In this document: positions 2,362 to 30,285 of the stretch, one piece after another
How the letters are laid out: each line of letters starts with the position of its first letter
Position numbering within the stretch: position 1 is the first letter of the stretch
Source of the DNA: Oscillospiraceae bacterium
GTDB taxonomy: Bacteria > Bacillota > Clostridia > Oscillospirales > Oscillospiraceae
DNA length: 36,147 bases
Direction of reading: 5' to 3'
Assembly (NCBI GenBank): GCA_029257695.1
Contig: JARIAU010000049.1
Location: forward strand, 1-36,147
Program-made: the position numbers and the translations under genes
The notes under the pieces: model-generated
Databases searched by the model: none
Told to the model about the DNA's origin: nothing
What the model saw: only the letters and a program-made list of their open reading frames with translations

Positions 2362-2384
2362 ACCGGCGAAATCAAGCCGCCGGT
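2362..2384 (-). other. Hairpin in greA 5' leader
   Basis: In the greA transcript ACCGGCG and CGCCGGT form a perfect 7-bp GC-rich stem with a 9-base loop. It starts about 30 bases after the predicted transcription start. No U-run follows (TTCAATCAG), so it is not a classical terminator. It may stabilise the leader or cause pausing. Confidence 0.55.
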
Positions 2385-2420
2385 ACAAAGAAAAGGGTAG
2401 AATGCTACATTATCTAAAAC

Positions 2421-2449
2421 ATTATAGTTGTAATAATATGGTGTGTCAA
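2421..2449 (-). promoter_or_regulatory. Sigma-A promoter of greA-lysS
   Basis: TTGACA (2449-2444), a 17-base spacer and TATAAT (2426-2421) match the sigma-A consensus perfectly. The TGA stop codon of the upstream gene lies inside the -35 hexamer. Transcription should start near 2413. Confidence 0.9.
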
Positions 2450-3105: not shown

Positions 3106-3153
3106 GAACATTCCTCCCTAGTCAGTCTATGAAAAATGTAGAGAAAATATGGA

Positions 3154-3182
3154 TTGGCAGCGGTACCGGGCTATGATAAAAT
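3154..3182 (+). promoter_or_regulatory. Probable promoter of the COG2509 oxidoreductase gene
   Basis: TTGGCA (3154-3159), a 17-base spacer and TAAAAT (3177-3182) with an upstream TG (TGATAAAAT, extended -10). Predicted start is only about 12 bases before the ATG, giving a very short leader. Confidence 0.55.
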
Positions 3183-3200
3183 GAATACGGTGATAAAATT

Positions 3201-4781: not shown

Positions 4782-4792
4782 GAAGAAAGAAC

Positions 4793-4825
4793 TGCGCCGC
4801 AGAGTAGGTTTTGCTCTGTGGCGCA
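4793..4825 (+). terminator. Hairpin downstream of the COG2509 gene
   Basis: TGCGCCGCAGAG (4793-4804) pairs with CTCTGTGGCGCA (4814-4825), 12 bp with one G-U. The following bases are ATAAAAT rather than a U-run, so termination may be incomplete. Confidence 0.55.
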
Positions 4826-4855
4826 TAAAATATAGCGCAAAATAGGGCGGTTTCC

Positions 4856-4884
4856 TTGCAATTCGACATTTGTATTGATATAAT
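4856..4884 (+). promoter_or_regulatory. Promoter of the smc operon
   Basis: TTGCAA (4856-4861), a 17-base spacer and TATAAT (4879-4884). A second TATAAT at 4897-4902 with TTGATA 16 bases before it could form a tandem promoter. Confidence 0.7.
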
Positions 4885-4946
4885 AAATTGTTAATCTATA
4901 ATTTTATGCATGGTTTGAAATTTGAAGGACAGGAGAGGTGCTTGCG

Positions 4947-8516: not shown

Positions 8517-8528
8517 GGAGTCAACGAC

Positions 8529-9395
8529 ATGGGTTTTTTTGATAAGATTAAAAAGTTGGGTATTTTCAACGGCTTTACCAAGCTGACCGACGAGTTTTTC
8601 GATGAGCTGGAAGAATCCCTGATCCTTGCGGATATGGGTATTGACACCACGATGAAGGCGGTGGAAGAGCTGCGCCGGCGCACGAAGGCCAATCACATCA
8701 AGGATGTGGAAGGCGGTCGGGAATGCATGAAGGAAATCCTGGCGGAGATGCTGCAGGTGGGTGATCTGGCGTTGGATCTGTCCGGCAAGCCGGCTGTGGT
8801 ACTGTTTATTGGTGTCAATGGTGTGGGCAAGACCACGACCATCGGCAAAATCGGACATGACCTGAAGGCACATGGGCAGAAGGTGATTTTTGCTGCGGCA
8901 GATACCTTCCGTGCGGCTGCGGCAGAACAGCTCACCATCTGGGCCGATCGCTGCGGCGTGGAAATTGTGAAGCAGGGGGAAGGTGCAGATCCTGCCGCTG
9001 TGGTCTATGATTCTCTGACGGCAGCCAAGGCGCGGAAGGCGGATGTGGTGCTGATTGACACGGCCGGCCGTCTGCACAATAAGGCAAATCTGATGAACGA
9101 ACTGAATAAGATCAGTCGTGTTGTGGATCAGGTCTGCCCCGAGTCCAGCCGGGAAACACTGCTGGTGCTGGATGCGACCACGGGACAGAATGGCCTGATT
9201 CAGGCCAAGCAGTTTAAGGAGGCAGCCGGAATCACAGGCATCGCCCTCACGAAGCTGGACGGAACCGCTAAGGGCGGCATTGCGATTGCAATCGCACAGG
9301 AACTGGGTGTTCCGGTCAAATTTGCCGGTGTGGGAGAGGGAATTGATGATTTGAAGCCTTTCGATCCGGCTGCGTTTGCAGATGCTTTGATTTGA
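8529..9395 (+). CDS. ftsY: Signal recognition particle receptor FtsY
   Basis: SRP receptor GTPase that docks Ffh-ribosome complexes at the membrane for cotranslational insertion. The 288-residue protein is essentially only the NG domains; the long acidic A domain of proteobacterial FtsY is absent, as in many Firmicutes. G1 [10 protein letters not shown] starts at residue 95, DTAGR is at 177-181 and TKLDG at 241-245. The SD (AAGGAG) overlaps the smc stop codon, so the two genes are probably translationally coupled. smc-ftsY adjacency is typical of Firmicutes. Confidence 0.96.
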
Positions 9396-9414
9396 TTGTG
9401 AGGAGGTCGTACCT

Positions 9415-10137
9415 ATGGCAAGAATGGATGGCCGAGCCAACGATGAGCTGCGCCCGGTCGTAATTACGCCCGATGTCAATGGATTTGCGGAAGGCAGTGT
9501 GCTGATCCGGTGCGGTCAGACGCAGGTGATGGTCACCGCCTCTGTGGAGGACTGCGTGCCACCGTTTGTTCCGGAAGGACAGGGCTGGATCACGGCAGAG
9601 TATAATATGCTGCCTCGTGCCAACCGTACCCGCTCTCGTCGTGACATTTCCAAGTTGAAATTGAATGGACGCAGTGCGGAAATTCAGCGCTTGATCGGCC
9701 GTTCGCTCCGAGCCGCAGTGGATATGAAGAAGCTGGGGCCCCATATGATTACTGTGGACTGTGATGTACTTCAGGCAGACGGTGGAACCCGAACGGCATC
9801 CATTACCGGCGGTTTTGTGGCACTGGCACTGGCAGTGAAAAAGCTGATGGCGGAAGGTGCGGTGACAGAAAATCCGATTCTGCACACGGTGGCGGCGATT
9901 TCTGCCGGTATTGTGAACGACGAACCGATGCTGGATCTCCAATATTATGAAGATTCGTCTGCGCAGGTGGATTTCAACTGTGTAATGACGGAAACAGGGG
10001 AACTGATCGAAATTCAGGGCACTGGCGAGGGTCGTTCGTTCACTTTGGAAGAGCAGGCGGAGTTGATTCGACTGTGCAGCAAGGGCATTCGGGAATTGAA
10101 TGCCCTTCAGCAGAAAGTGGTAGGTGATTTGCGGTGA
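9415..10137 (+). CDS. rph: Ribonuclease PH
   Basis: Phosphate-dependent 3'-to-5' exoribonuclease that trims tRNA 3' ends. The full-length 240-residue product begins RMDGRANDELRPV and has the RNase PH core: EYNMLPRANRTRSRRD near residue 62, IQRLIGRSLRAAVD, DCDVLQADGGTRTASITG, and EIQGTGEGRSFT near the C terminus. The SD GGAGG precedes the ATG by 8 bases. Its GTGA end overlaps the GTG start of rdgB by 4 bases, a pairing common in bacteria (rph-rdgB). Confidence 0.97.
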   Translation: MARMDGRANDELRPVVITPDVNGFAEGSVLIRCGQTQVMVTASVEDCVPPFVPEGQGWITAEYNMLPRANRTRSRRDISKLKLNGRSAEIQRLIGRSLRAAVDMKKLGPHMITVDCDVLQADGGTRTASITGGFVALALAVKKLMAEGAVTENPILHTVAAISAGIVNDEPMLDLQYYEDSSAQVDFNCVMTETGELIEIQGTGEGRSFTLEEQAELIRLCSKGIRELNALQQKVVGDLR

Positions 10138-10751
10138 AAGCGGTTTTGGCAAGCCATAATCCGGGAAAGCTGAAGGAAATGCAGCTTTGGCTGGAGCCTT
10201 TGGGAATTGAATTGGTGCTGGAAAGCGATTTGGGCATTGATATCGAGGTGGAGGAGATCGGCCGCACCTTTGAAGAGAACTCTCTGCTGAAGGCAGCAAC
10301 CGTAGCCCGTGCCACCAAGATGATGGCCATTGCGGATGATTCCGGCCTCTGCGTGGAGGCACTCAATGGCGAGCCCGGCATCCGAACTGCCCGATACGGC
10401 GGCGAGGGATTGACTGATCGGGACCGCTATGAGCGGTTGCTGGAGAATATGAAAGAAGAGAGCAACCGCAATGCAAAATTTGTGAGCGTGGTGACCTGCG
10501 TGTTCCCGAATGCAGACATTGTGTCTGCACGCGGAGAATTGCACGGAGCCATTGGGTATAATCCCATTGGAACCGGCGGGTTTGGATATGATCCGGTGTT
10601 TATTGTAACCAATATGCGAAAGACATTGGCTCAGATGACCATGAAGGAACGGCAGAGCTGTTCCCATCGGGCTGCTGCCATCCGTTCGTTGGCAGTTAAG
10701 CTGGAAGAATATAAGAAACAGAAAAAACAGGAGGGCATGGAATGGAATTGA
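10134..10751 (+). CDS. rdgB: XTP/dITP diphosphatase (RdgB/HAM1)
   Basis: Hydrolyses the non-canonical purine nucleotides dITP, XTP and ITP to monophosphates, keeping them out of DNA and RNA. The 205 residues contain SHNPGKLKEM at 7-16, the metal-binding ADDSGLCVEALNGEPG near 66, GTGGFGYDPVF and SHRAAA near the C terminus. The GTG start overlaps the rph stop, so translational coupling is likely. The 3' end overlaps yhbY by 10 bases. Confidence 0.96.
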   Translation: MKAVLASHNPGKLKEMQLWLEPLGIELVLESDLGIDIEVEEIGRTFEENSLLKAATVARATKMMAIADDSGLCVEALNGEPGIRTARYGGEGLTDRDRYERLLENMKEESNRNAKFVSVVTCVFPNADIVSARGELHGAIGYNPIGTGGFGYDPVFIVTNMRKTLAQMTMKERQSCSHRAAAIRSLAVKLEEYKKQKKQEGMEWN

Positions 10752-11050
10752 CCAGCAAGCAGAGAGCGCAGCTCAGAAGCCTTGCCAATGGCATTGACAC
10801 CATTGTAATCGTAGGTAAGGACGGTGTCAGTGAGAATCTGATCACCCAGGTGAACGATGCGCTGGAAAGCCGGGAACTGGTGAAGGGCAAGGTTTTGGAA
10901 ACCTGCGAGTACACCCCCAGAGAGATTTGCGATCAGTTGAGCAAGCTGACCCGCAGCGAGCAGGTCCAGGTGATCGGCTCCAAGTTTGTGCTGTATCGTC
11001 AGTCTCATAGAAAAGATAAGAAAGACAAGATCGTTTTGGTCAGAAAGTGA
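10742..11050 (+). CDS. yhbY: YhbY-family ribosome-associated RNA-binding protein (CRM domain)
   Basis: Small single-domain CRM protein of 102 residues, associated with the maturing large ribosomal subunit in characterised bacteria. It begins LTSKQRAQLRSLANG and carries the CRM GxxG-like loop in IVGKDGVSENLI, followed by ELVKGKVLE and the TRSEQVQVIGSKFVLYR C-terminal strand. GGAGGG 6 bases upstream supports the start, which lies inside the end of rdgB. It leads directly into the nadD fusion gene 10 bases later. Confidence 0.93.
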   Translation: MELTSKQRAQLRSLANGIDTIVIVGKDGVSENLITQVNDALESRELVKGKVLETCEYTPREICDQLSKLTRSEQVQVIGSKFVLYRQSHRKDKKDKIVLVRK

Positions 11051-11060
11051 TGTGTGACCT

Positions 11061-12266
11061 ATGCGGATTGGAATTTACGGTGGAACCTTTGACCCCATTC
11101 ATCGGGGACATATGGCAGCGGCAAAGGCGGCGGCACAGCGACTTGCGCTGGAGCGCCTGTTGCTGATTCCTGCCGGCGTTCCTCCCCACAAAGCGCTTTC
11201 CAATGCCAGTGCGGAAGGAATGCACCGATTGGAAATGACCCGATTGGCAGCAGATCGGTTGGATCTTTCGATTCCGGTGGATGTGTTGGACATTGAGCTT
11301 CGCCGGGAAGGAAAGAGTTATACCTGTGAAACCCTGCGCACCTTACACGAGCAATTTCCGGGGGACGAACTGTGGCTACTGATGGGAACGGATATGTTTC
11401 TGACCCTGCACCAGTGGCGCTGTCCGGAAGAAATCTTGTCCTTGGCGAGGGTCTGTGCCTTTGGTCGAAGCACGGAAGATGTGAAGGAGCTGTTCCCGAA
11501 GCAAAAGCAGTATCTGGAAGAAACTTACGGAGCCACTGTGGTTGCAATGGAACTGAATCCCCCCGTGGAAGTATCCTCCACAGAGATCCGTGCTGCATTG
11601 TCGGAAGGGAAGCGCCCTGTGGAGTTGGATGAATCCATCTATGGCTATATTCTGCGCTTTGGTTTGTATGGAACCAACAAGGATTTGAAACACCTTAGCT
11701 GGGAAGATCTGCGGGCCTGCTCCTACTCCATGATCCGTGCTAAGCGGATTCCACATGTCCGTGGATGCGAGGAAGAGGCGGTGCGCTTGGCCGGAATCTG
11801 GGGCGTGGATCCGGATTTGGCTCGGGCAGCGGCGATTCTCCATGACTGCACCAAATATTGGACCATGGAGGAGCATAAGGCATTGTGCGAAACCTATGGG
11901 ATTGTGCTTGACGATTTGGAACAATCTGCTGTAAAATTACTCCATTCCAAAACCGGCGCCTGCATTGCATATGCGGTGTTCGGTATGCCGGACTCGGTGT
12001 GCAGAGCCATTTATTGGCATACCACCGGAAAGGCGGATATGACAACACTAGAAAAGATCCTGTATATTGCCGATTATATGGAGCCAAACCGCAACTTCAG
12101 CGGAGTGGAGCGGCTGCGTGCGCTGGTCTATACGGACCTGGATGCTGCGTGTCTGCTGGGGCTTGAGATGAGCATTGAGGATCTGGAGCGCCGGGGAAAT
12201 CCGGTGCATCAAAATACCCGGGAAGCGAGAGACTTCCTCAGAAAGGAGCAAAACAATGGCTGTTGA
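11061..12266 (+). CDS. nadD: Fused NadD (nicotinate-nucleotide adenylyltransferase) - YqeK (HD-domain Ap4A hydrolase)
   Basis: A 401-residue bifunctional protein. Residues 1 to about 195 are NadD, which converts nicotinate mononucleotide and ATP to deamido-NAD. It has GGTFDPIHRGHM at 8-19 and SSTEIR at 172-177. Residues about 205-395 are YqeK, an HD-superfamily phosphohydrolase that cleaves diadenosine tetraphosphate symmetrically in characterised homologues. Its metal residues are visible: RIPHV, ILHD (H261, D262), LLHSKTG, and YWHTTGKADMTTLEKILYIADYMEP. In B. subtilis these are adjacent separate genes; here there is no stop between them. The gene overlaps rsfS by 11 bases, and nadD-yqeK-rsfS is the standard Firmicutes order. 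Confidence 0.95.
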   Translation: MRIGIYGGTFDPIHRGHMAAAKAAAQRLALERLLLIPAGVPPHKALSNASAEGMHRLEMTRLAADRLDLSIPVDVLDIELRREGKSYTCETLRTLHEQFPGDELWLLMGTDMFLTLHQWRCPEEILSLARVCAFGRSTEDVKELFPKQKQYLEETYGATVVAMELNPPVEVSSTEIRAALSEGKRPVELDESIYGYILRFGLYGTNKDLKHLSWEDLRACSYSMIRAKRIPHVRGCEEEAVRLAGIWGVDPDLARAAAILHDCTKYWTMEEHKALCETYGIVLDDLEQSAVKLLHSKTGACIAYAVFGMPDSVCRAIYWHTTGKADMTTLEKILYIADYMEPNRNFSGVERLRALVYTDLDAACLLGLEMSIEDLERRGNPVHQNTREARDFLRKEQNNGC

Positions 12267-12621
12267 ATCCATTGTCACTATGGAGGCCGCCGTCAAGGCG
12301 CTGGATCAGAAGAAAGGTAAGAACATTCGTGTGCTGCGCACCGGAGAACTGACGACTCTGGCAGACTACTTTGTGCTGTGCACCGCTGGTTCTACCACGC
12401 AGGTTAAGGCACTGTGTGACATCTGCGAGGAGGAAGTGGAGAAGGCCGGCGGCGAGCTGCATCACAGAGAGGGCTTCCGTGACGGAGGCTGGGTCCTGCT
12501 GGACTTTTCCGATGTTGTGGTGCATGTGTTCTTGGACGAAGAGCGTGACTTTTACGATTTGGAGCGCCTTTGGTCCGATGCAGAAGAGGTGGACATCTCT
12601 TCGTATCTGAGCGAGGATTAA
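12256..12621 (+). CDS. rsfS: Ribosome silencing factor RsfS
   Basis: Binds uL14 on the large subunit and blocks subunit joining when nutrients fall. The 121-residue product shows the Iojap/RsfS pattern: LTTLADYFVLCTAGSTTQ near residues 34-51, REGFRDGGWVLLDFSDVVVHVF and RDFYDLERLWSDA. ATG at 12256 is chosen because AAAGGAG lies 7 bases upstream and the protein then begins MAVESIVTMEAAVKAL, as expected; a longer in-frame start inside nadD-yqeK has no SD. It overlaps the previous gene by 11 bases. Confidence 0.95.
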   Translation: MAVESIVTMEAAVKALDQKKGKNIRVLRTGELTTLADYFVLCTAGSTTQVKALCDICEEEVEKAGGELHHREGFRDGGWVLLDFSDVVVHVFLDEERDFYDLERLWSDAEEVDISSYLSED

Positions 12622-12654
12622 AGCTCAAATTCGATTAGAAAGCGTGGATTTAAG

Positions 12655-15081
12655 TTGAAGTACGATTTTACTGCGATTGAGAAGAAATGGCAGCAGCGCT
12701 GGAAGGAACGCGATTGTTTCCGAGCTGTCACCGGTGACACCAGCCGCCCTAAGTGGTATGGTCTGGTGGAATTCCCCTATCCCTCCGGACAGGGGCTGCA
12801 TGTGGGCCATGCCCGTCCTTATACCGCAATGGATGTGATTGCCCGCAAAAAGCGCATGGATGGCTACAATGTGCTGTTCCCCATCGGCTATGACGCCTTT
12901 GGTTTGCCTACGGAGAACTACGCCATCAAGATGCATATTCATCCCTCTAAGGTCACGGCGGATAACATTGCCAATTTCCGCGCTCAACTGGAAATGCTGG
13001 GCTATTCCTTTGACTGGGATCGGGAGCTGGATACCACCGACTCCAATTATTACAAGTGGACGCAGTGGATTTTCCTGCAGCTGTTCAAAAAGGGACTGGC
13101 TTACAAGTCCAGTATGCCTGTAAACTGGTGCACATCCTGTAAGTGTGTGTTGGCCAATGAAGAGGTGGTCAATGGCGTTTGCGAGCGCTGCGGATCTCCG
13201 GTTGTCCGCAAGGAGAAGAGCCAGTGGATGCTGAAGATCACCGAGTATGCACAGAAACTGATTGATGGTCTGGATACCGTTGATTTCCTTCCCCGTGTCA
13301 TTACACAGCAGAAGAACTGGATCGGCCGTTCCACCGGCGCTGAGGTGAACTTTGCCACCACCGAGGGTGATGTGCTGACGGTGTATACCACTCGCTGCGA
13401 CACCCTGTTTGGTGCAACCTATATGGTCATTGCCCCCGAGCATGAGGTGGTGACAAAGTGGAGCGACAAGCTGGAAAATCTGGATGAGGTGCAGGCCTAT
13501 GTCCGAGCCGCAGCGGCGAAGTCTGACTTTGAGCGCACGGAACTGGCCAAAGAAAAGACCGGTGTGGAGCTGAAGGGAGTCCGAGCCATCAACCCCATCA
13601 ATGGGAAGGAAATTCCCATCTTTATTTCCGACTATGTGCTGGCCACCTACGGCACGGGTGCTATTATGGCCGTCCCGGCCCATGACTCCCGTGACTGGGA
13701 CTTTGCGAAGGCATTCCAGCTGCCCATCGTGCAGGTGGTGGCCAAGGATGGCGAAGAAGTGGATGTGGAACAGGCTGCCTTTACTGATGTGGCAACCGGC
13801 GTGATGGTGAATTCCGGGTTCCTGACCGGCATGAGCGTTGCCGATGCCCAGCAGGCTATGATCGAGCATCTGGAGAAGGAAGGGATCGGCCACGCCAAGG
13901 TGAACTTCAAGCTGCGTGACTGGGTGTTCTCCCGTCAGCGTTACTGGGGTGAGCCCATTCCGATTGTCAAGTGCCCGAAGTGCGGATATGTGCCGCTGCC
14001 GGAGGATCAGCTGCCTCTGGTGCTGCCCGAGGTGGACAGCTATGAGACCACGGATGACGGTGAGTCCCCCTTGAGTGCCATCCGTGACTGGGTGGAGACG
14101 ACCTGTCCCTGCTGCGGCGGCAAGGCCGAGCGTGAAACCGACACGATGCCGCAGTGGGCCGGTTCCTCTTGGTACTTCCTGCGTTATATGGACCCCAAGA
14201 ATCCGGATGCGCTGGCCTCCAAGGAGGCATTGGATTACTGGGGACAGGTGGATTGGTACAATGGAGGCATGGAGCATACCACCCTGCATCTGCTGTACAG
14301 CCGGTTCTGGAACCATTTCCTCTATGACATTGGGGTTGTACCCAATGCAGAGCCTTACCACAAGCGGACCAGCCACGGCATGATCTTGGGTGAGGGTGGC
14401 GAAAAGATGTCCAAGTCCAGAGGCAATGTGGTCAACCCCAATGACATTGTGGCCGAGTATGGTGCAGATACCATGCGGACCTACATTATGTTCATCGGTG
14501 ACTTTGCCAAGGCGGCAGCTTGGTCCTCCAAGGCCGTGGCCGGCTGCAAGCGCTTCCTGGACCGTGTCTGGAACCTGCAGGAGATGGCTGGCGACAGCAT
14601 GGAGTATTCCGAAGCCAATGTGGCCGAGATCCACAAGGCCATCCGCAAGGTCAATGATGACATCGAGGCGATGAAGTTCAATACCGCCATTGCAACGCTG
14701 ATGAGTCTGGTCAATGGCTTCTATGCCAACGGCCTGACCAAGGGGGATTTGAAGGCGCTGGTTTTGATGCTGTCTCCTGTGGCTCCCCATATGTGTGAGG
14801 AGATCTGGTCCAATCTGGGCTGCGATGGTCTCGTTTGCGAGCAGAAGTGGCCGGAGTATGACGAGAGCAAGACCGTAGCCGCCACCACGAATTTGGCGGT
14901 GCAAATCGGCGGTAAGATGCGTGGCAATATTCAGGTGCCCACCGATGCGGAACAGGACACTGTGGTGGAAATCGCTTTGGCAGATCCGAAAATTGCCAAA
15001 TACGCCGAGGGCATGGAAATTGTGAAGGTCATTCTGGTCAAGAACCGTCTGGTCAACCTCATTTTGAAACCCAAAGCATAA
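12655..15081 (+). CDS. leuS: Leucyl-tRNA synthetase
   Basis: Class I synthetase that charges tRNA-Leu, with an editing domain that removes mischarged amino acids. The 808-residue length is normal. The HIGH motif HVGH is at 49-52, zinc-binding Cys pairs occur near 155-180 (CTSCKCV, CERCG) and 440-485, and the CP1 editing domain contains [14 protein letters not shown] and [20 protein letters not shown] is at 584-588. The start is a TTG at 12655, giving the typical [14 protein letters not shown] terminus, but the SD is weak. It lies 33 bases after rsfS, with no room for a T-box leader, so it is presumably transcribed from the smc operon. Confidence 0.97.
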
Positions 15082-15108
15082 AAAAGTTCCAATCGGAGAA
15101 AGTTTCTA

Positions 15109-15137
15109 TTGACAGAATGCATTGAACAGCGTACAAT
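15109..15137 (+). promoter_or_regulatory. Sigma-A promoter of rpsU
   Basis: TTGACA (15109-15114), a 17-base spacer and TACAAT (15132-15137), with a leader of about 70 bases before rpsU. Confidence 0.85.
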
Positions 15138-15166
15138 AGTCAGGTAAGGCTATAAATGCCTGTTCG

Positions 15167-15208
15167 TGCCCTGTTGAATATAACTCCCTGGGCATTTTGG
15201 AGGGAGGG
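15167..15208 (+). promoter_or_regulatory. Possible SD-masking structure in the rpsU leader
   Basis: Two short pairings exclude each other. TGCCC (15167-15171) can pair with GGGCA (15190-15194). CTCCC (15184-15188) can pair with GGGAG (15202-15206), which is the rpsU Shine-Dalgarno. Each pairing puts a partner of the other in its loop, so the leader could switch SD access. Seen in sequence; regulation is inferred. Confidence 0.35.
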
Positions 15209-15215
15209 AAATTAG

Positions 15216-15398
15216 ATGTCTGAAGTCCGCGTTAGAGAAAATGAGTCTCTGGACAGCGCCCTGAAGCGCTTCAAGCGCAGCTGCGCCAAGTCCGGTGTTC
15301 TGGCCGAAGTTCGTCGCCGTGAGCACTACGAGAGCCCCAGCGTCAAGCGTCGCAAGAAGTCTGAGGCTGCCCGTAAGAATCGCAAGAAGTTCTATTGA
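15216..15398 (+). CDS. rpsU: 30S ribosomal protein bS21
   Basis: Small basic protein of the 30S subunit near the anti-SD region of 16S rRNA. The 60 residues match S21: [19 protein letters not shown], then [21 protein letters not shown] strong GGGAGGG SD precedes the ATG by 7 bases. It has its own promoter and a perfect intrinsic terminator, so it is a monocistronic unit at the end of the smc-leuS operon. Confidence 0.98.
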
Positions 15399-15411
15399 TC
15401 GTTTTGATCAG

Positions 15412-15442
15412 AAACGCCCCCTGCTTGATGCAGGGGGCGTTT
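15412..15442 (+). terminator. Intrinsic terminator of rpsU
   Basis: AAACGCCCCCTGC (15412-15424) and GCAGGGGGCGTTT (15430-15442) form a perfect 13-bp stem with loop TTGAT, followed by AGTTTTGCTT. Confidence 0.9.
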
Positions 15443-15574
15443 AGTTTTGCTTAGTAGGGAAGAGACATGCATCGTCAAGTGTGTTTGACCGAGAAAACAT
15501 TCGTGTCTATGAGTGCTCGTAATAATATGCAGTGTCGATGTGAGTTATGTTTGTGCGGTGTACAGCGAAACTGC

Positions 15575-15603
15575 TTGACAGAATGTGGGCGTAGTGATAT
15601 AGT
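15575..15603 (+). promoter_or_regulatory. Promoter of the MFS efflux attenuator unit
   Basis: TTGACA (15575-15580), a 17-base spacer and TATAGT (15598-15603). The transcript should start near 15610, 30 bases before the leader peptide. The stretch 15443-15574 before it holds no convincing gene. Confidence 0.85.
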
Positions 15604-15628
15604 ACAGTAAACTCAAAAGTGAAAGCGA

Positions 15629-15683
15629 GGTGGACAAAATGAAACAGTTTATTCTGATAAAATCAACCGTCATTTTGTCCGCT
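15629..15683 (+). promoter_or_regulatory. Leader hairpin A and antiterminator strand
   Basis: GGACAAAATG (15632-15641) and CATTTTGTCC (15671-15680) form a perfect 10-bp stem, extendable to 13 bp with G-U pairs. It encloses the leader ATG and overlaps its SD. The 29-base loop contains TCTGATAAAATCA (15653-15665), the exact reverse complement of the terminator segment 15724-15736. Hairpin A therefore cages the antiterminator strand. A ribosome held on the last leader codons would open the 3' arm and free it. Confidence 0.72.
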
Positions 15684-15689
15684 GATTGA
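15639..15689 (+). CDS. 16-residue leader peptide of the MFS efflux gene
   Basis: A short ORF encoding MKQFILIKSTVILSAD lies between the promoter and the terminator. The SD GAGGTGG (15627-15633) is 5 bases before the ATG. The peptide is hydrophobic with a Ser-Thr-Val centre; STV also occurs in the ErmC and ErmB leader peptides known from the literature, which may be coincidence. Its start codon lies in the 5' arm of a perfect inverted repeat. Codons 5-9 contain the 13-base antiterminator strand. The position, SD and overlap with mutually exclusive RNA structures suggest a ribosome-stalling sensor. It is too short for homology, so the call rests on architecture. Confidence 0.72.
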   Translation: MKQFILIKSTVILSAD

Positions 15690-15717
15690 GTAGCCTTTCT
15701 CATATGGATGGAAATGC

Positions 15718-15746
15718 CGCCTCTGATTTTATCAGAGGCGTTTTTT
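15718..15746 (+). terminator. Conditional intrinsic terminator (attenuator) before the MFS gene
   Basis: CGCCTCTGAT (15718-15727) and ATCAGAGGCG (15731-15740) form a perfect 10-bp stem with loop TTT, followed by six Ts. It lies 30 bases before the MFS start codon, so it must be read through for expression. Segment 15724-15736 can pair instead with 15653-15665 (13 bp). Confidence 0.88.
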
Positions 15747-15775
15747 ATTCTTTATTTTGAGAAAGAGGTAGTTGA

Positions 15776-17050
15776 ATGAAAGAAAATGTGTATATTCATT
15801 TGTTAAAACACCGTGATTTTATGTCCTTTTGGGGTTCGACGACATTACTGCGGTTTGCGTCCAATATTCTGCAATTTGCAGTAGCTATTTATGTTCTGGA
15901 TCTGACCGGATCGGCATTTGTTTATGCTACTGTGCTATCGATCATTATCGTTCCCCGCATTCTTTGTACTTCCGTTGCTGGTTATTTGGCGGATTTCAAG
16001 GACAGTATCAAAGTTTTGCGCTTGGGAACTTTTGGCATCAGCGTGTTGATGGCTTGTTTTTTCCTGATTCATGTGTTTGCTGTTCCGCTGACAGTGCCGA
16101 TGATATACGCTTTGGTCAGTGGTTTGGAGCTGTGCGAAACCTTTCTTGGACCTACGGAGGGAAAACTGTTGCTCCGTGTTGTTACGGAAGAAGAGATTGC
16201 ACCAGCAAGTAAACTTTCCTCCTTGGATGATGGAATCGTTGAAATTTTATCTCCGGTCATTGCTGCATTGATTTACGGTGCATTCGGACTGACCGGTGTG
16301 TTGGGAATTACATTTGCGCTGGAAGACATTGCGTTTGCTTTGTCCATACGGATTCATTGCAAAGAGAGGCGGGAACATGCTGAAACTATGCCAGAAGAGG
16401 TGCATTTGGTTAGAAAACTGGTGGAAGCTTATCAAGAAACCTTCAAAGGTCTGAACTCCCATCCCTATGTTATCGGAATCATTTTGTTTGCGCCGCTGTA
16501 TAATTTTTTTGTTGCACCACTCTTTTCGGTGACAGTACCCCATTATTTTCGTGTGACAATGCAGGCTGATGTAAAAATGTATGCTATGTTCAATATGGTG
16601 CTAGGCGTTGCGGGATTGATTGCACCGTTTTTGGCGATGTTTTTGATCCGTGATGAAGATGAGTGCAGAGCAAATCGAGGCGGAACTGTAATTTCTGCCA
16701 CCATTCTGCTGTGTCTGTGCGGAATTATGTATTTTGCGCCTAATATGATTTCTGCCGATGGGTCATTGTATACCCTGACCGGAACCATGGCATTTCTTGT
16801 GGCCGTTGTGACCATCATGAATATAGCAACATCAATCACGCTAAAAAAACGGGTTCCAGAGCAAATTATGGGGCGTGTCATTTCTATGATCCAGTTAAGT
16901 GCGACTCTCTCTTTGCCATTGGGGCAGCTGTTTTATGGTCTATGCGCCGATCAAATGCCAATCACAATTGCACTTTTGTGCTCTGTTGTTGGACTTGCGA
17001 TCACATTTGTAGTTATGACTCAGACATACCGAGCCATCAGAAAAATGTAA
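15776..17050 (+). CDS. MFS drug-efflux transporter, MefA-like
   Basis: A 424-residue integral membrane protein of the major facilitator superfamily, closest by pattern to the macrolide/multidrug efflux (MefA-like) branch. The N terminus FMSFWGSTTLLRFASNI leads into TM1 with AIYVLDLTGSA. A motif-A-like loop GYLADFKDSIKVLR follows TM2, and about 12 hydrophobic segments can be placed. The substrate is inferred, not shown. SD AGAGGT precedes the ATG. The gene reads AT-richer than the smc-leuS block, which suggests acquisition. It is expressed only if the upstream terminator is bypassed, the organisation of translation-inhibitor resistance genes under leader-peptide attenuation. A long hairpin follows it. 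Confidence 0.87.
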   Translation: MKENVYIHLLKHRDFMSFWGSTTLLRFASNILQFAVAIYVLDLTGSAFVYATVLSIIIVPRILCTSVAGYLADFKDSIKVLRLGTFGISVLMACFFLIHVFAVPLTVPMIYALVSGLELCETFLGPTEGKLLLRVVTEEEIAPASKLSSLDDGIVEILSPVIAALIYGAFGLTGVLGITFALEDIAFALSIRIHCKERREHAETMPEEVHLVRKLVEAYQETFKGLNSHPYVIGIILFAPLYNFFVAPLFSVTVPHYFRVTMQADVKMYAMFNMVLGVAGLIAPFLAMFLIRDEDECRANRGGTVISATILLCLCGIMYFAPNMISADGSLYTLTGTMAFLVAVVTIMNIATSITLKKRVPEQIMGRVISMIQLSATLSLPLGQLFYGLCADQMPITIALLCSVVGLAITFVVMTQTYRAIRKM

Positions 17051-17101
17051 ACAGGAGTTATCCTGCTTTGCTCGATGTGTGAAAGCTGAACGAGAGAATG
17101 C

Positions 17102-17138
17102 AAGAACCACCGCCCTCCGATGGAGAGCGGTGGTTCTT
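17102..17138. terminator. Bidirectional hairpin between the MFS gene and the GH18-like gene
   Basis: AAGAACCACCGC (17102-17113) and GCGGTGGTTCTT (17127-17138) form a perfect 12-bp stem, with an inner CTCC/GGAG extension. It lies between convergent genes; the T-runs are short on both sides. Confidence 0.75.
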
Positions 17139-17167
17139 TGTGATCGGAGTTCGTCACAGGGATAAAG

Positions 17168-17911
17168 TCAGACTTGCAAATCGCCCCAAGCCACCAAACA
17201 GCGGTTGAGGCCCAGCTCACTAGCCAGGCGCAGCTTGGCCCGCAAACTTTCGCCGTCATCAAAGAGGACAAAGTGAGGTTGTCCCTGTTCGGAATAAGTG
17301 AAATAACGGGCACAGAGATCGGAGGACCAGTAGAGGTCGGGACGCACCCGAGCCTGTAGCAGGGAAAGGGATTCGCTGGAGAGAGAAGTGCCCTCACCGG
17401 TTTGAGATGGGAGAAGAAAATCTGCGGTAGTGCGTTCGAGGGCCGGAATCACCCGGTCTCGTCCGAAACAACGAACAGCATCCAGTAAGCGATGGCGCAG
17501 ACTGCCGCCGGAGATAGCCGTGGACACCATCAGTTTGGCGTGGGGCGCTTGTTGGGCGTAGCAGTCCGGCACATAGAGGGCAAGCCCTTGCGCATGGAGC
17601 AAGTGGTCCATATCCGCCGCAAGAGCGGCTTGATGGGGTGGAAGGTCGGCGATAACTCCGGAATATCGGCGTGCTTGGCATTCCCGAAGCAGTTGTTGTA
17701 GAAAGAAAGAATAATTTCGGCCCAAAACGGAAGGAGCGGGGGAGATGTACAGGAATCCACCTTGTCCAGGCATCTGGGTTCCGGCACGCATCAGTTTTGG
17801 TCCGGGTGCTACCTGATAGGCAATGTGGGCAATATCCGGATGCTGTTCACTTGGAATGTGATTTTCTTGATTTGGATTGGCGGCCAAAATCGGTGTGGAA
17901 TGCTGTGGCAT
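17168..17911 (-). CDS. Hypothetical protein with a degenerate GH18-like (YaaH-type) pattern
   Basis: A 247-residue soluble protein without an evident signal peptide. The C-terminal part (FVLFDDGESLRAKLRLASELGLNRCLVAWGDL, given here only as motif pieces: FDDGESLRAKL and ASELGLNRCLVAW) resembles the last strands of GH18 spore-cortex proteins such as YaaH, where a Glu-Ser-Leu-Lys helix precedes a final Trp. The strand that normally carries DGxDxDxE appears as RYSGVIADL, so catalytic residues seem missing. It may be a non-catalytic TIM-barrel relative. The start ATG has AAGGGGGT 9 bases upstream. It is divergent from yqeG and convergent with the MFS gene. Family assignment is tentative. Confidence 0.6.
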   Translation of the reverse strand: MPQHSTPILAANPNQENHIPSEQHPDIAHIAYQVAPGPKLMRAGTQMPGQGGFLYISPAPSVLGRNYSFFLQQLLRECQARRYSGVIADLPPHQAALAADMDHLLHAQGLALYVPDCYAQQAPHAKLMVSTAISGGSLRHRLLDAVRCFGRDRVIPALERTTADFLLPSQTGEGTSLSSESLSLLQARVRPDLYWSSDLCARYFTYSEQGQPHFVLFDDGESLRAKLRLASELGLNRCLVAWGDLQV

Positions 17912-17926
17912 AACGATGCAACCCCC

Positions 17927-17955
17927 TTGTTCCTGGTGTTAGAATCATGTATAAT
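17927..17955 (+). promoter_or_regulatory. Probable promoter of yqeG
   Basis: TATAAT (17950-17955) with a weak -35 TTGTTC (17927-17932) at 17 bases. It lies in the divergent gap before yqeG. Confidence 0.6.
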
Positions 17956-18006
17956 GCAACATATGAAATTAACAGACCGAATAGAACGGGCTGATTGGAG
18001 GAATTT

Positions 18007-18510
18007 ATGCCTTTTTCGCTTGTACCCCGCCATATGGAGCGGAGTATTTATACAATGGATCTGAATTTGCTGGAACAGCAAGGAGTTCGGGTGATTTTTG
18101 CTGATTTGGACAACACTTTGGCACGCTATTCAGAGCGCACACCATCTGAACGCTTGCTTGCGTGGAAACAGTCGCTGGAACAACATGGTATCCGGCTGTT
18201 TGTTGTGTCCAACAGTCGGAAATCTACTCGGGCGGATGAATTCTGCCGTGCGGGTGACATCCCCTATATCAAGCATGCCGGAAAACCCAAGAAGCAGGGA
18301 TTTGTGCGCGCGTTGGAATGGAATGATGTGACACCGGAGCAAGTGGTGATGGTGGGAGACCAGATTTTCACGGATATTCTCGGGGGAAATCGCTGCGGAA
18401 TCGACACCGTATTGGTACGGCCAGTAGCCAATGATACGATATTTCGAGTGCTTCGCCATGGATTGGAGGCACCCATGCGTTGGTTGTGCCGGGATCGGAG
18501 GAGTTGGTGA
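18007..18510 (+). CDS. yqeG: YqeG family HAD phosphatase
   Basis: HAD superfamily (IIIA type) hydrolase of 167 residues. The nucleophile motif FADLDNTLARY places D33 and D35. VVSNSRKS is the second motif, and KPKKQGF with VGDQIFTDILGGNRCGIDTVLV the third and fourth. Physiological substrates are not established. ATG at 18007 has GGAGG 5 bases before it; a TTG four codons upstream overlaps that SD and was rejected. Its TGA overlaps the ATG of the next gene (TGATG), suggesting translational coupling. Confidence 0.93.
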   Translation: MPFSLVPRHMERSIYTMDLNLLEQQGVRVIFADLDNTLARYSERTPSERLLAWKQSLEQHGIRLFVVSNSRKSTRADEFCRAGDIPYIKHAGKPKKQGFVRALEWNDVTPEQVVMVGDQIFTDILGGNRCGIDTVLVRPVANDTIFRVLRHGLEAPMRWLCRDRRSW

Positions 18511-19370
18511 TGGGCGCTCGGTTTGGTGTGGCAGGCAATTCCGATACCTACACCACCACGGTCAGCAAGGCCTCTGCCAAGGCTCCGGCATGGCTGAAAT
18601 CCATTGGACTGGATGCCTATGAATACCAGTGCGGAAAAGGAGTGCATGTGGGAGAGGCTACGGCGCTGCAAATCGGAAAAAATGCAAAGGCAGCTGGGAT
18701 TGCTATGTCCCTGCACGCCCCGTATTTTATCAATTTGGCAAACCCGGCGCCGGAGAGTCTGGAAAAAACCGTGGGGTATATCACCTCTGCCTGTCATGTG
18801 GCGGATCTGCTGGGGGCGGATCGTGTGGTGGTCCATTCAGGTGCTCTGATGAAACGCACCCGCCGGGAGGCACTGGAGATTGCCTTGTGTTCCATGAAGG
18901 AAATCCTGAATCGCTGTGATGACATGGGCTATGGACACATCCATCTGTGCCCGGAAACGATGGGGAAAATCAATCAGCTGGGTGATTTGGATGAGGTGCT
19001 GGAACTTTGCACATTGGATGAGCGGCTGATTCCCTGCATTGACTTCGGACATCTCTATGCCCGATCTCTGGGGAGTCTAGAGGGAGAAGAGGCTTGCGAG
19101 CAGATGCTGGATCGTGTGGAGGCGGTGCTGGGATCTGACCGTGCATCCCAATTTCACAGTCATTTTTCGCACATTGAGTATACACCCAAGGGGGGTGAAT
19201 ACCGTCATGTGTGCTTCCGAGACGGTGTGTGGGGGCCGGATTTTCATCCTTTGGCGGCAGCGGTGGCAAGAAGAGGCTGGAGCCCCACCTTTATTTGTGA
19301 ATCGGCTGGAACGCAAAGCGAGGATGCGCTGGAAATGAAACAAATATATTTGGAACAGATTGAAAAATGA
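18510..19370 (+). CDS. TIM-barrel protein, endonuclease IV (Nfo)/xylose-isomerase-like
   Basis: A 286-residue TIM-barrel protein related to AP endonuclease family 2 and sugar-phosphate isomerases. Candidate metal ligands appear in the usual order: LHAPYFIN (His), VVVHSG (His), CPETMGK (Glu), CIDFGHLYAR (Asp, His), FHSHFSH (His), PDFHP (His) and FICES (Glu). This set is like Nfo, so DNA repair at abasic sites is possible, but the sequence differs from classical Nfo and another substrate cannot be excluded. ATG at 18510 follows GGAGGAG by 6 bases and overlaps the yqeG stop. A strong terminator follows 2 bases after the stop. Confidence 0.82.
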   Translation: MGARFGVAGNSDTYTTTVSKASAKAPAWLKSIGLDAYEYQCGKGVHVGEATALQIGKNAKAAGIAMSLHAPYFINLANPAPESLEKTVGYITSACHVADLLGADRVVVHSGALMKRTRREALEIALCSMKEILNRCDDMGYGHIHLCPETMGKINQLGDLDEVLELCTLDERLIPCIDFGHLYARSLGSLEGEEACEQMLDRVEAVLGSDRASQFHSHFSHIEYTPKGGEYRHVCFRDGVWGPDFHPLAAAVARRGWSPTFICESAGTQSEDALEMKQIYLEQIEK

Positions 19371-19372
19371 GA

Positions 19373-19410
19373 AAAACCGCATTTGGAAGAAACCTTCCGA
19401 ATGCGGTTTT
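19373..19410. terminator. Bidirectional terminator
   Basis: AAAACCGCATTTGGAAG (19373-19389) pairs with CTTCCGAATGCGGTTTT (19394-19410), 17 bp with one G-U and a 4-base loop. It serves the TIM-barrel gene and the convergent DivIVA-like gene. Confidence 0.85.
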
Positions 19411-19424
19411 GTCATGCAATTGGG

Positions 19425-19997
19425 TCAACGGTTGGGGTCTGCTTCGTTGGTCAGCTTGGATTGCAGCTCCTGCAAATGGGAAAGAGAAGTGCGGAGCTCA
19501 CAGAGGCGGTCAATCACTTCGTTCAGTGTGGTTTCTGCAGAAAGGCCGGTGCGACTGTATTCTCCCATCACCTGATCCAGCAGCTGTTGTGCTTCCGTGC
19601 GTGTTTCGGCGGCGGTCTCTTCGGCATCTTTGATGATCTGTGCAGCTCTGGCCCGAGCATCCAGTTCGATGTTGGCCAAGGTATCCTTGATTTCAGCATA
19701 GGTTTCTGCCTGAGGCTGATAAAGTTCTACGGAACGGCGAAGTTCCTCTACCTCGGATTCCAACGGTTCCAGCACATCCAAGCGGGCAGAGAGTTCGCTG
19801 CAGCGCTCACTGAGGGTGTCCGCCCGTGCTTTTTCACCCGTCAAGGCCTTGACGGATGCCTGAGCCTCGTTCAGCTCCTTCCGCAGGGCGTTGAGCTGAG
19901 CGGCGTGTGCTTGTGATGTCGCTTCAATATAATCAACCACATCCTGACGGTGGAACCCGCCGAAAGCAGCAGTGCGGAGATGCAAGGTATCGTTCAT
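19425..19997 (-). CDS. DivIVA-like coiled-coil protein
   Basis: A 190-residue protein with the N-terminal DivIVA lipid-binding pattern FGGFHRQDVVDYIEA (residues 12-26), followed by an almost continuous coiled coil rich in Ala, Glu and Leu (about residues 28-180). DivIVA relatives bind curved membrane and scaffold division, septum or polar proteins. It is shorter than many homologues and monocistronic. The ATG lies 9 bases after an AGGGG SD, with a promoter 33 bases further upstream. The precise partner is unknown; membership of the DivIVA superfamily is likely but motif-based. Confidence 0.75.
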   Translation of the reverse strand: MNDTLHLRTAAFGGFHRQDVVDYIEATSQAHAAQLNALRKELNEAQASVKALTGEKARADTLSERCSELSARLDVLEPLESEVEELRRSVELYQPQAETYAEIKDTLANIELDARARAAQIIKDAEETAAETRTEAQQLLDQVMGEYSRTGLSAETTLNEVIDRLCELRTSLSHLQELQSKLTNEADPNR

Positions 19998-20030
19998 GGG
20001 AGAGACCCCTTTCCTACTTATAGTGCATTT

Positions 20031-20059
20031 ATTTTATCATAGCCGAGCAAAACTGACAA
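20031..20059 (-). promoter_or_regulatory. Promoter of the DivIVA-like gene
   Basis: TTGTCA (20059-20054), a 17-base spacer and TAAAAT (20036-20031), preceded by TG (TGATAAAAT, extended -10). Confidence 0.75.
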
Positions 20060-20068
20060 GACACCAAG

Positions 20069-20104
20069 AATCCCGGCACAGAATGAAGGTTCTGTGCCGG
20101 GATT
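20069..20104 (-). terminator. Terminator hairpin downstream of glnA
   Basis: AATCCCGGCACAGAA and TTCTGTGCCGGGATT form a perfect 15-bp stem with a 6-base loop, followed on the minus strand by CTTGGTGTCTTG. The U-run is weak, but the stem is very strong. Confidence 0.75.
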
Positions 20105-20127
20105 GTGACAGAATATGGAGGAGTGGA

Positions 20128-22233
20128 TCAGACCTCAAACATCAGATCGCCGTAGGTGGGAACCGGCCAATAATCCTTGTTGACCAGCAGCTCCAGCCCG
20201 TCGATGGGAGTGCGGAGTGCATTCATAGCAGGTACGACCTGATTGCGGAACGCCTGAGCCATGGCAGCCACATCGGTCATGGCATTGGTTTCTGCCGTGA
20301 CCTGCTCCAAATGGGCACGGGCGTTGCTGGCCTCGGTGAGCAGATCGGACACCTGACACAGCAGCTGTTCCTGCACCGTCGTGTTGGCGCAGGGGCAGGC
20401 GGCCTTGACCTGATTGATGGAAGAGGCCAGCTCCGTTACATAGTTGATGACCGCAGGGATGTAGTGCTTGGAAGACATATGCAGCATAGTCTGGGCTTCG
20501 ATATTGATGCCCTTGGAATAGCCCTCATACAGCACATCACAGCGGCTGCGAAGTTCGGCTTCGGTGAAAATATGGAATTTCTCGAACAGGGCGATGGCCT
20601 TGGGCGTGCAAAGCATGGGGATGGCATCCACAGTAGAAGGGATGTTTGGCAGACCACGACGGGCAGCTTCCCGCACCCATTCTTCGGAGTAGCCGTCGCC
20701 GTTGAAGATGATACGCTGGTGTGCTACGAAATTGGTGCGGATCAGTTCACGGCAGGCCGACTCAAAATCTTCAGCCTGCTCCAGTTGGTCCGCAGCCTCG
20801 CAGAAGGCTTCGGCAACGATGGTGTTCAGGACGGTGTTGGCATCGGCAATGGAGTCGGAGGAGCCGACCATGCGGAACTCAAACTTATTGCTGGTAAAGG
20901 CAAACGGAGTGGTGCGGTTACGGTCTGAACCGTCTTTGGTCAGCACGGGAACCGTGGATACGCCGGAATCCAGAGGAGTCCGTCCGTGTCCGCTGGAGGA
21001 GGTGCCGTTGACGATGTGTTCGATCACGCTGTCCAATTCATCGCCCAGGAACACGGAGATGATGGCCGGAGGAGCTTCCTGAGCACCCAAGCGCAGGTCG
21101 TTGCCCACATTGCAGGCACTTTGGCGGAGCAAATCCGCATGGGTATCGACTGCCTTCAGAATGCAGGACAGTACCAGCTGGAATTGTAGATTGTCGGCCG
21201 GATGGCTTCCGGGAGAAAGCAGATTCTCGCCTGTATCCACACCCAGAGACCAGTTGTTGTGCTTGCCGGAACCATTGACGCCGGCGAAGGGCTTTTCATG
21301 CAGCAGACAGACCAAACCGTGCCGGGTGGCAACACGCTTCATGGTTTCCATGGCCAGCTGGTTTTGATCGACCGCCACATTGGCCACGCAGTAAATGGGC
21401 GCCATTTCGTGCTGTGCCGGGGCGGCCTCGTTGTGCTGGGTGGTGGCCGTGATGCCCAGCTTCCAAAGTTCTTCGTTCAGATCCTTCATAAAGGAGCCAA
21501 CACGCTCTCGGATGACACCGAAGTACTGATCTTCCAGCTCCTGTCCCTTGGGGGCGGGGGCTCCGAAGAGGGTGCGGCCGCAGTAAATCAGGTCCCGGCG
21601 TTTGAGGTACTTCTCCCGATCTACGAGGAAGTACTCCTGCTCTGCACCCACAAATGCAGAGGCTTTGGTGGCCTTGGTGTTGCCGAACAGACGGACAATG
21701 CGGATGGTCTGTTCGCTCAGAGCCTCCATAGCGTGGAGCAAAGGGGTCTTGGTATCCAGTGCCTCGCCGGTGTAGGAAACAAAGATGGTGGGAATGCAAA
21801 GAATGTTGCCGCAGGACATTTCCTTTACAAAGGCAGGGGATGTCATATCCCATGCGGTGTAACCACGAGCGTAAGAGGTGGCGCGCAGGCCGCCGGAGGG
21901 GAAGGAAGATGCGTCGGATTCACCCATAATGAGCTGTTTTCCGGTCAGCTGCAGCAGGGTCTTTCCTTCCACAGGGTAGGTGATGAAAGAGTCGTGCTTT
22001 TCGGCAGTGGCACCGGTCAGGGGCTGAAACCAATGGGTGTAGTGGGTTGCGCCTTTTTCTACAGCCCAATCTTTCATTGCGGTGGCAACGATGTCAGCAA
22101 TGCGCATCGAGATCTGGCCGCCGTGTTCCTTGACCTGCATGACCTCGTTGAACACATCTCTGGGGAGACGGTCTCTCATAACGGATTCGTTAAAAACATT
22201 GGAGCCAAAGATCTGTGTGATATTCATAGACAT
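20128..22233 (-). CDS. glnN: Glutamine synthetase type III
   Basis: Makes glutamine from glutamate, ammonia and ATP. The 701-residue length fits GSIII (GlnN), much longer than GSI. The N terminus NVFNESVMRDRLPRDVF and the GSIII signatures are visible: GAEQEYFLVD near residue 220, TQHNEAAPAQHE with QLAMETM, and KPFAGVNGSGKHNNWSL near 355. ATG at 22233 is chosen because AGGAAAGGG lies 6 bases before it; the frame remains open upstream to 22593, but that part lacks family similarity and runs through the promoter. A 127-base leader separates the promoter from the start. The gene is followed by a strong hairpin. Confidence 0.95.
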   Translation of the reverse strand: MSMNITQIFGSNVFNESVMRDRLPRDVFNEVMQVKEHGGQISMRIADIVATAMKDWAVEKGATHYTHWFQPLTGATAEKHDSFITYPVEGKTLLQLTGKQLIMGESDASSFPSGGLRATSYARGYTAWDMTSPAFVKEMSCGNILCIPTIFVSYTGEALDTKTPLLHAMEALSEQTIRIVRLFGNTKATKASAFVGAEQEYFLVDREKYLKRRDLIYCGRTLFGAPAPKGQELEDQYFGVIRERVGSFMKDLNEELWKLGITATTQHNEAAPAQHEMAPIYCVANVAVDQNQLAMETMKRVATRHGLVCLLHEKPFAGVNGSGKHNNWSLGVDTGENLLSPGSHPADNLQFQLVLSCILKAVDTHADLLRQSACNVGNDLRLGAQEAPPAIISVFLGDELDSVIEHIVNGTSSSGHGRTPLDSGVSTVPVLTKDGSDRNRTTPFAFTSNKFEFRMVGSSDSIADANTVLNTIVAEAFCEAADQLEQAEDFESACRELIRTNFVAHQRIIFNGDGYSEEWVREAARRGLPNIPSTVDAIPMLCTPKAIALFEKFHIFTEAELRSRCDVLYEGYSKGINIEAQTMLHMSSKHYIPAVINYVTELASSINQVKAACPCANTTVQEQLLCQVSDLLTEASNARAHLEQVTAETNAMTDVAAMAQAFRNQVVPAMNALRTPIDGLELLVNKDYWPVPTYGDLMFEV

Positions 22234-30195: not shown

Positions 30196-30285
30196 GGCGG
30201 AGAAGGAGGGATTTGAACCCTCGCGACGGTTACCCGCCCTACGCCCTTAGCAGGGGCGCCTCTTCGGCCACTTGAGTACTTCTCC
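30195..30285 (-). tRNA. tRNA-Ser (GCT anticodon)
   Basis: Type II tRNA with a long variable arm and acceptor GGAGAAG/CTTCTCC. The anticodon GCT (30251-30249) sits in the loop CTGCTAA, the T-loop is GGGTTCAAATCCC, and the discriminator is G with an encoded CCA. It is read together with the second tRNA-Ser upstream. Confidence 0.95.

Follow-up and report, generated by a model that had tools for sequence, protein, structure and literature searches.

A gene for an MFS transporter in an Oscillospiraceae bacterium (contig JARIAU010000049.1 of assembly GCA_029257695.1, 36,147 nucleotides, analysed as a whole and called the window below) is preceded by a short ORF and an intrinsic terminator, and part of the ORF is complementary to part of the terminator. 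This arrangement raises the question whether a ribosome on the short ORF decides if RNA polymerase reaches the transporter gene and, if so, at which codon that ribosome would have to be held. An earlier note on this DNA had proposed a leader-peptide attenuator, in which a ribosome stalled by a 50S inhibitor on codons about 11-16 opens an upstream hairpin (hairpin A) and frees an antiterminator strand. As a whole, that interpretation is partly supported by our analysis.

Organization of the leader

The promoter, the 16-codon ORF with its Shine-Dalgarno (SD) sequence, hairpin A, the terminator with six T residues and the MFS start, as listed in the earlier note, are all present, with small shifts (Table 1). 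A short SD-bearing ORF, whose translation is putative, lies between promoter and terminator.

Table 1. Elements of the leader and the MFS gene in the window
Element	Positions	Strand	Remarks
Promoter-like site TTGACA-17-TATAGT	15575..15603	+	11/12 consensus positions; TG before second hexamer
Leader Shine-Dalgarno AGGTGG	15628..15633	+	All but T invariant in 13 aligned leaders
Leader ORF, 16 codons + TGA: MKQFILIKSTVILSAD	15639..15689	+	ATG 15639, TGA 15687-15689
Hairpin A (anti-antiterminator)	15629..15683	+	15629-15642 pairs with 15670-15683; covers leader SD and ATG
Antiterminator strand TCTGATAAAATCA, within leader ORF	15653..15665	+	Exact complement of 15724-15736
Antiterminator partner TGATTTTATCAGA, within terminator	15724..15736	+	Complement search and covariation
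Intrinsic terminator	15718..15746	+	Stem 15718-15740, 10 pairs, 3-base loop, then TTTTTT
Helix C, anti-SD arm, just 3' of leader stop codon	15693..15702	+	Folding and shuffles
Helix C, partner arm 15758-15762 + 15765-15769	15758..15769	+	Includes most of the MFS gene's Shine-Dalgarno
MFS transporter gene, 424 aa	15776..17050	+	MefA/TIGR00900-like, under cut-offs of those models

The 13-nt exact complementarity between ORF and terminator was confirmed. With the terminator held fixed, none of 5000 dinucleotide shuffles of 15609-15717 reached 13 nt, the longest complement being 12 nt (in 5 shuffles). The TCTGATAAAATCA pattern, with at most one mismatch allowed, matched the window only twice, at the ORF strand and at its complement in the terminator, and two matches occurred in 0 of 100 window shuffles. 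The 13-nt complement in this leader is not due to chance. The transcript 15610-15776, whose folding the note had recommended, gave an energy of -54.2 kcal/mol, compared with a shuffle mean of -33.9 (z -5.25).

Other pairings can be drawn in the same region. GAGGTGG at 15627-15633, in the leader SD region, is pairable with CCGCCTC at 15717-15723 of the terminator first arm and represents a second possible antiterminator in the window. GAAAG and AGGT are common to 15621-15631 (leader SD) and 15761-15769 (MFS SD), so that the anti-SD arm of helix C could pair with either SD.

The MFS gene as a probable inserted unit

The 424-aa protein matched PF07690 (58.2 bits) and PF05977 (44.2 bits) in Pfam and, below the cut-off, TIGR00900 in NCBIfam (123 bits). 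It resembles the Mef(A)-type macrolide efflux proteins (NF000245) in being an MFS protein with a weak profile match, but its score of 42.4 bits is far under the cut-off of 675 and places it outside Mef(A). A protein search returned 82 proteins at E<=1e-10, its own included, among 7997 scored candidates. In an alignment of 45 MFS proteins headed by our own, the other 44 are 48-73% identical to it. No sequence match to the MFS profile was found among solved structures at E<=0.001, and no relative was found with the profile in viral contigs. In sampled genomes the profile matched at E<=1e-60 in 2 of 394 of the order and 1 of 391 of the class, own gene included; the single non-own match has no leader by covariance model. 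When contigs were searched with the single MFS protein, a relative was encoded in 0 of 19 stretches.

GC content drops to 0.44-0.45 over 15001-17000; the 1-kb windows covering 1-15000 and 17001-22000 have 0.51-0.57. For the right-hand neighbour gene (17171-17911, minus strand), 20 other genomes among the 60 searched contain a homologue at E<=1e-20 (21 with our own). Comparison of 19 of these 20 loci, about 1.5 kb per side, showed rpsU adjoining the homologue in 9 and an MFS match in none. In genome G001, from the same genus, the 2.2 kb compared have a different gene after leuS and rpsU and no MFS. Given the GC drop and the MFS-free sites in relatives, promoter, leader and MFS gene resemble one inserted unit; within the region 15300-17920, leader and MFS gene have the look of a single-gene insertion. 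A strong terminator-like hairpin at 15412-15442 lies directly 3' of rpsU, upstream of the MFS unit. Elsewhere in the window, two tRNA genes are found at 30198-30420 on the minus strand.

Distribution of the leader

A profile search of genome contigs yielded four MFS loci, L024-L027. The same leader precedes the MFS gene in a Faecalimonas MAG (L024), a Limivicinus MAG (L025) and a Ruminococcus MAG (L026), whose MFS proteins are 61-68% identical; these three further loci support a leader-peptide attenuator before the MFS gene. In the most distant of the four, L027 from Neofamilia (MFS 48% identical), the leader is absent. At L027 a different ORF of 41 codons (3864-3989) lies directly 5' of the MFS gene and is perhaps another leader. 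Between the window and L024-L026, leader DNA is 0.80-0.84 identical, the four-fold sites of the MFS genes 0.29-0.46 and the upstream promoter region 0.31-0.52; by these identities, the leader is conserved beyond the synonymous sites of the MFS gene.

Scanned by pattern, viral contigs yielded the same arrangement in IMGVR_UViG_3300025154_002797, where a tandem-GNAT gene follows. On viral contig L030 (8266-9890, minus strand), leader and GNAT genes lie antisense between ORFs that, judged by eye, resemble phage head and connector genes; leader and GNAT look like a cargo gene there.

A covariance model was built from five leaders (the window, L024-L026 and the viral-contig leader). On the genome of the window it found the known copy and, on the opposite strand at that site, a match of 23.5 bits (E 0.29), and on 398 genomes of the phylum the window's copy alone at E<=0.001. 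On 391 class genomes it gave 15 matches at E<=0.01, own included, and on 240 family genomes 8, own included. Matches were read by eye for an SD, an ATG, a short ORF and hairpin A at the model position, and 4 of the 14 non-own class matches and 5 of the 7 non-own family matches were kept as leaders. The ten class matches L083-L087 and L089-L093 and the family matches L097 and L099 lack the SD-ATG short ORF plus hairpin A and were rejected. The nine added leaders bring the family to 14 with the window. Two of them, L098 (34.8 bits) and L100 (31.1 bits), are weak matches to the model.

All 14 leaders have a short ORF with SD and ATG starting at the same model position, followed by an MFS gene in 4, a GNAT gene in 6 (L080, L081, L082, L088 and L096 among them), a NAT_N/GNAT_C gene in 2 (L094 and L095) and a gene for a PF09818-type ATPase in 2. 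The ATPase behind the L098 leader matches PF09818 with 309.6 bits; the ORF behind the L100 leader has no Pfam match of its own and is 40% identical to that of L098 over 242 aligned positions. The PF09818-type ATPases possibly represent an unrecognised resistance-type family. At L081 (1-1503, minus strand) the GNAT protein has a C-terminal continuation that resembles a kinase when judged by eye, and for which Pfam named no kinase.

DNA searches of plasmid and phage collections with the window or L026 leader gave no leader and at most 31-42-base matches. Further pattern scans of viral contigs added nothing beyond L030: of 17 pattern-matched contigs one was L030 and the other 16 had no model match at E up to 1, and in four further viral contigs the best match (14.4 bits) lay elsewhere in L103. 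Rfam, searched with the window at gathering scores and with 12 leader loci (L024 and L025 left out) at E up to 1, matched none of the leaders; its sole matches at those loci were two tRNAs outside them. No description of such a leader was found in the literature searched, largely at title level, and the peptide letters ILIKS retrieved no related work among the matches listed.

Covariation of antiterminator and terminator

Thirteen of the 14 leaders were aligned on the helix structure of the window; the covariation figures are qualified by this choice of structure and by the kinship among the rows. L088 was left out because its antiterminator is in another register; L096 was retained despite a poorly aligned helix, and its alignment is uncertain. 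In the 12-pair antiterminator, 95.5% of 156 cells are paired, with double changes in 5 pairs (11 cells). The paired fraction, the number of double-changed cells and the covariation score were each reached by 0 of 500 shuffles and the number of double-changed pairs by 2 of 500, whereas further pair types were not raised (455 of 500 shuffles as high). Slid registers paired in 26-51% of cells (best 51.4%).

The cleanest covarying pair is 15659-15730, A-T in the window and G-C in 3 of 13 rows (L082, L096, L098). Since 15730 lies in the terminator loop, the antiterminator alone explains this covariation. Positions 15655, 15665, 15724 and 15734 change jointly in L081 and L082. The terminator covaries as well (95.4% of cells paired, 14 double-changed cells, 0 of 500 shuffles). 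The mutual exclusion of terminator and antiterminator that the note had derived from the window alone is therefore supported by covariation over 13 leaders. Hairpin A is kept, with 90.6% of its cells paired, a level also reached by 49 of 500 shuffles; it covaries little, with 2 double-changed cells.

Ribosome position and RNA structure

When the complete nascent RNA was folded at equilibrium, the window terminator prevailed at every stall codon (P 0.94-0.95). Among the 14 leaders, fewer than 2 terminator-internal pairs were left only in L024 with the ribosome on codon 16 and L096 with the ribosome on codon 1; L082 retained 2.0 at codon 22, where the ribosome itself covers the terminator. Because the terminator is kept in the complete RNA at equilibrium, any control by the ribosome would have to be kinetic (co-transcriptional). 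Partial-transcript folding agrees with a structure decided by ribosome position, whereas complete-RNA equilibrium does not.

In partial transcripts whose second terminator arm had not fully emerged, a ribosome on codon 1 gave 7.6-14.3 expected ORF:terminator pairs in all 14 leaders, and in 11 of them terminator-internal pairs stayed below 2 at every end examined. The exceptions, with higher values at some ends, were L025 (3.5), L088 (5.0) and L098 (8.7); with the largest footprint, L098 dropped to 4.2 ORF:terminator pairs. With no ribosome, ORF:terminator pairs were at most 3.6 in 12 of 14 leaders and already present in L082 (10.0) and L096 (14.3). Ribosomes on codons 6, 8 and 10 allowed at most 2.6 such pairs in all 14 leaders with four footprint sizes.

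Ribosome-controlled antitermination is, with good confidence, the probable general mechanism of this leader. Its particular form is more tentative, and we lean towards a transcription switch in which the terminator would be prevented by a ribosome that a translation inhibitor holds, most likely at the leader start codon. With no ribosome, hairpin A would hide SD and ATG and the terminator would form, as was clear in models of 11 of the 14 leaders. A ribosome at the start codon would mask the 5' arm of hairpin A and, in partial transcripts, leave 15656-15665 free; the first arm of the emerging terminator could then pair with the freed strand, and RNA polymerase would presumably read through in the cell. 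A ribosome in mid-ORF would cover that strand, so that the antiterminator is not formed in the models, with a terminator outcome that varies by leader. Helix C, which joins the MFS SD to the segment following the stop codon, may add translational control. Start-codon stalling is favoured because the codon-1 antiterminator forms in 14 of 14 leaders and start-codon stalls have been published for vmlR and toiL.

Stalling late in the ORF and other explanations

A possible reading, though one we consider less probable, is that the same switch responds to a late stall, on codons 9-16 or on the last codons L-S-[A/S/T]-x, caused either by a 50S inhibitor that acts in a particular sequence context or by an arrest specific to the peptide; at that position the ribosome would in addition cover the anti-SD arm, leaving the MFS SD free. 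The motif KSxxxLS occurs in 11 of 14 leader peptides, with its L at codon 11, 13, 14 or 19, and the stop codon follows LS by exactly two codons in 9 of 14. Most of the peptides end with S-A/S/T plus one to four further residues; chloramphenicol and linezolid favour Ala, then Ser or Thr, as the penultimate residue, according to the available text of PMC8987054. KSxxxLS in 11 of 14 leaders exceeds the peptide conservation that a peptide-blind sensor would need, and synonymous changes (K as AAG in L080 and L081, S as TCG in L081 and L082) hint at selection on the peptide. The peptide conservation anticipated in the earlier note thus holds for most of the family, and fails in L082, L096 and L100, which lack the motif. 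However, L-S-A/T is also dictated by complementarity to the SD in this frame, and the peptide is confounded with hairpin A for that reason. Given this and the three leaders without KSxxxLS, the RNA architecture is taken as the more general feature.

Folding speaks on both sides of the late stall. A ribosome on the last codons (footprint -12..+16) gave at least 7 ORF:terminator pairs, with the 13-nt antiterminator, in 8 of 14 leaders, but at most 1.0 in L094, L095, L088, L098 and L100. For the window, ribosomes on codons 1-2 let the covarying 13-nt antiterminator form, while those on codons 15-16 do so only weakly, with a probability of at most 0.23 (2.8 expected pairs). Freeing of the 13-nt strand by a stall at codons 11-16 therefore does not hold as the note had it. 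Such a stall could still give read-through by another pairing: a ribosome that opens hairpin A from the 3' side leaves the SD arm free to pair with the terminator first arm, and in the window this capture reached 10.7-11.6 expected pairs at codons 9-16 and 9.0-11.0 at codons 4, 5 and 8. Terminator-internal pairs were then 0.2-1.4 (0.2 at codons 9-16), as against 4.8 without ribosome. A ribosome on any of these codons hinders the partial terminator by way of the SD arm, so the start codon is not the only effective position in the window, and a late stall gains support there.

Across the family, SD-arm capture was strong in L025 (codons 10-15), in L094 (above 10), L088 and L096 for part of the codons, and weak in L080 (at most 0.4 for codons 9-13), L098 and L100; L031 showed SD-arm pairing even without a ribosome (9.8). 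In these models the SD-arm route is less uniform across the family than the ORF strand, which argues against the late stall.

Helix C was as stable in 3 of 1000 shuffles for the window. At most 21 of 1000 shuffles were as stable in 8 of 14 leaders, with 66 for L031; L095, L082, L088, L098 and L100 had no shuffle support, L095 depending on the chosen gene start. In five leaders modelled, a ribosome near the ORF end raised the accessibility of the MFS or GNAT SD (for the MFS SD, from 0.26 to at most 0.48 in the window and from 0.00 to 0.70 in L025), in line with a late stall.

It is improbable that the leader is a metabolite- or protein-sensing RNA (a riboswitch or the target of an antiterminator protein) with an incidental ORF. 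The structure is kept more widely than the peptide, and a ligand might bind at helix C and hairpin A; against this, all 14 leaders retain SD, ATG and a short ORF, the covarying strand lies inside the ORF and is controlled by ribosome position in folding, and the Rfam search recorded above matched none of the leaders it covered. We give even less credence to a simple, unregulated terminator whose inverted repeat is fortuitous or duplicated. Complete-RNA equilibrium folding, in which the terminator nearly always persists wherever the ribosome is placed, would suit it, but the 13-nt complement absent from all 5000 shuffles, the covariation, one terminator-loop position included, and the same layout before unrelated genes speak against it. 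Classical amino-acid starvation attenuation, with which the layout of leader peptide plus terminator agrees, can practically be discarded, as none of the 14 peptides repeats a single regulatory codon in a run and the genes that follow have no biosynthetic role.

Comparison with described leaders

Among the nearest described systems is the vmlR leader of Bacillus subtilis. As described in the available text of PMC9226507, its uORF lies within an anti-antiterminator hairpin; the leader also has an alternative antiterminator, an intrinsic terminator and one more hairpin, over the SD of the gene, and the inducing drugs stall the initiating ribosome. The present leader shares the uORF in the anti-antiterminator, the antiterminator, the intrinsic terminator and, in the window and part of the family, the gene SD in a separate helix. 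It differs in that the vmlR uORF has three codons (MIN) and precedes an ABCF gene, against 16 codons before an MFS gene in the window and GNAT or PF09818-type genes elsewhere in the family, which sets the window leader apart from the vmlR type; in addition, the antiterminator strand sits inside the ORF here. vmlR has a NusG pause motif TTNTTT, whereas the only TTNTTT found near the window leader lies about 102 nt past the ATG, in the T-tract.

The toiL-topAI uORF of E. coli, in the available text of PMC12121999, responds to several drug classes, with stalls proposed at the start, codon 5 or the stop. It resembles the switch predicted here in that start-codon stalls are among those proposed, and differs in acting on translation and Rho-dependent termination; that text describes no intrinsic terminator/antiterminator pair. 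The mef(E)/mel and msrD leaders, in the available text of PMC4335068 and PMC10314930, show macrolide-dependent arrest with the peptides Mef(E)L MTASMRLR and MsrDL MYLIFM. In common are a short leader peptide and, ahead of an MFS efflux gene or msrD, a Rho-independent terminator, but none of our 14 peptides has the RLR or MTASMRLR-type motif of the mef/msr/erm group, and no similarity to KSxxxLS was seen. As far as the available text of these four sources goes, no shared sequence with the vmlR, toiL, mef(E) or msrD leaders was seen.

Significance of the leader family

Taken together, the leaders form a genuine class of covarying, probable attenuators, whose kind is known and whose spread over unrelated genes is unusual. 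Each is likely a portable RNA switch, predicted to turn its gene on if a translation inhibitor holds a ribosome on the leader. In view of the MFS-free site and the varied downstream genes, gene and leader likely travel jointly, as what may be a resistance-type cassette. To our knowledge, described drug-sensing leaders are mostly bound to one gene or gene family. Here, a single RNA module that can be followed by sequence and covariation precedes genes of at least three unrelated families. We regard it as an even call that the leaders make up a portable, so far undescribed class of translation-stress sensor, found in bacteria and a viral contig before MFS, several kinds of GNAT and PF09818-type ATPase genes, and usable as a tag for genes that act against ribosome-targeting antibiotics and have gone unrecognised, the PF09818 ATPases included. 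Whether the stall lies at the start codon or late in the ORF is a sharp question that the family poses. If the leader responds to ribosome inhibitors, it would flag resistance-type genes that are invisible to sequence similarity alone, and its swapping between genes would show how inducible control spreads.
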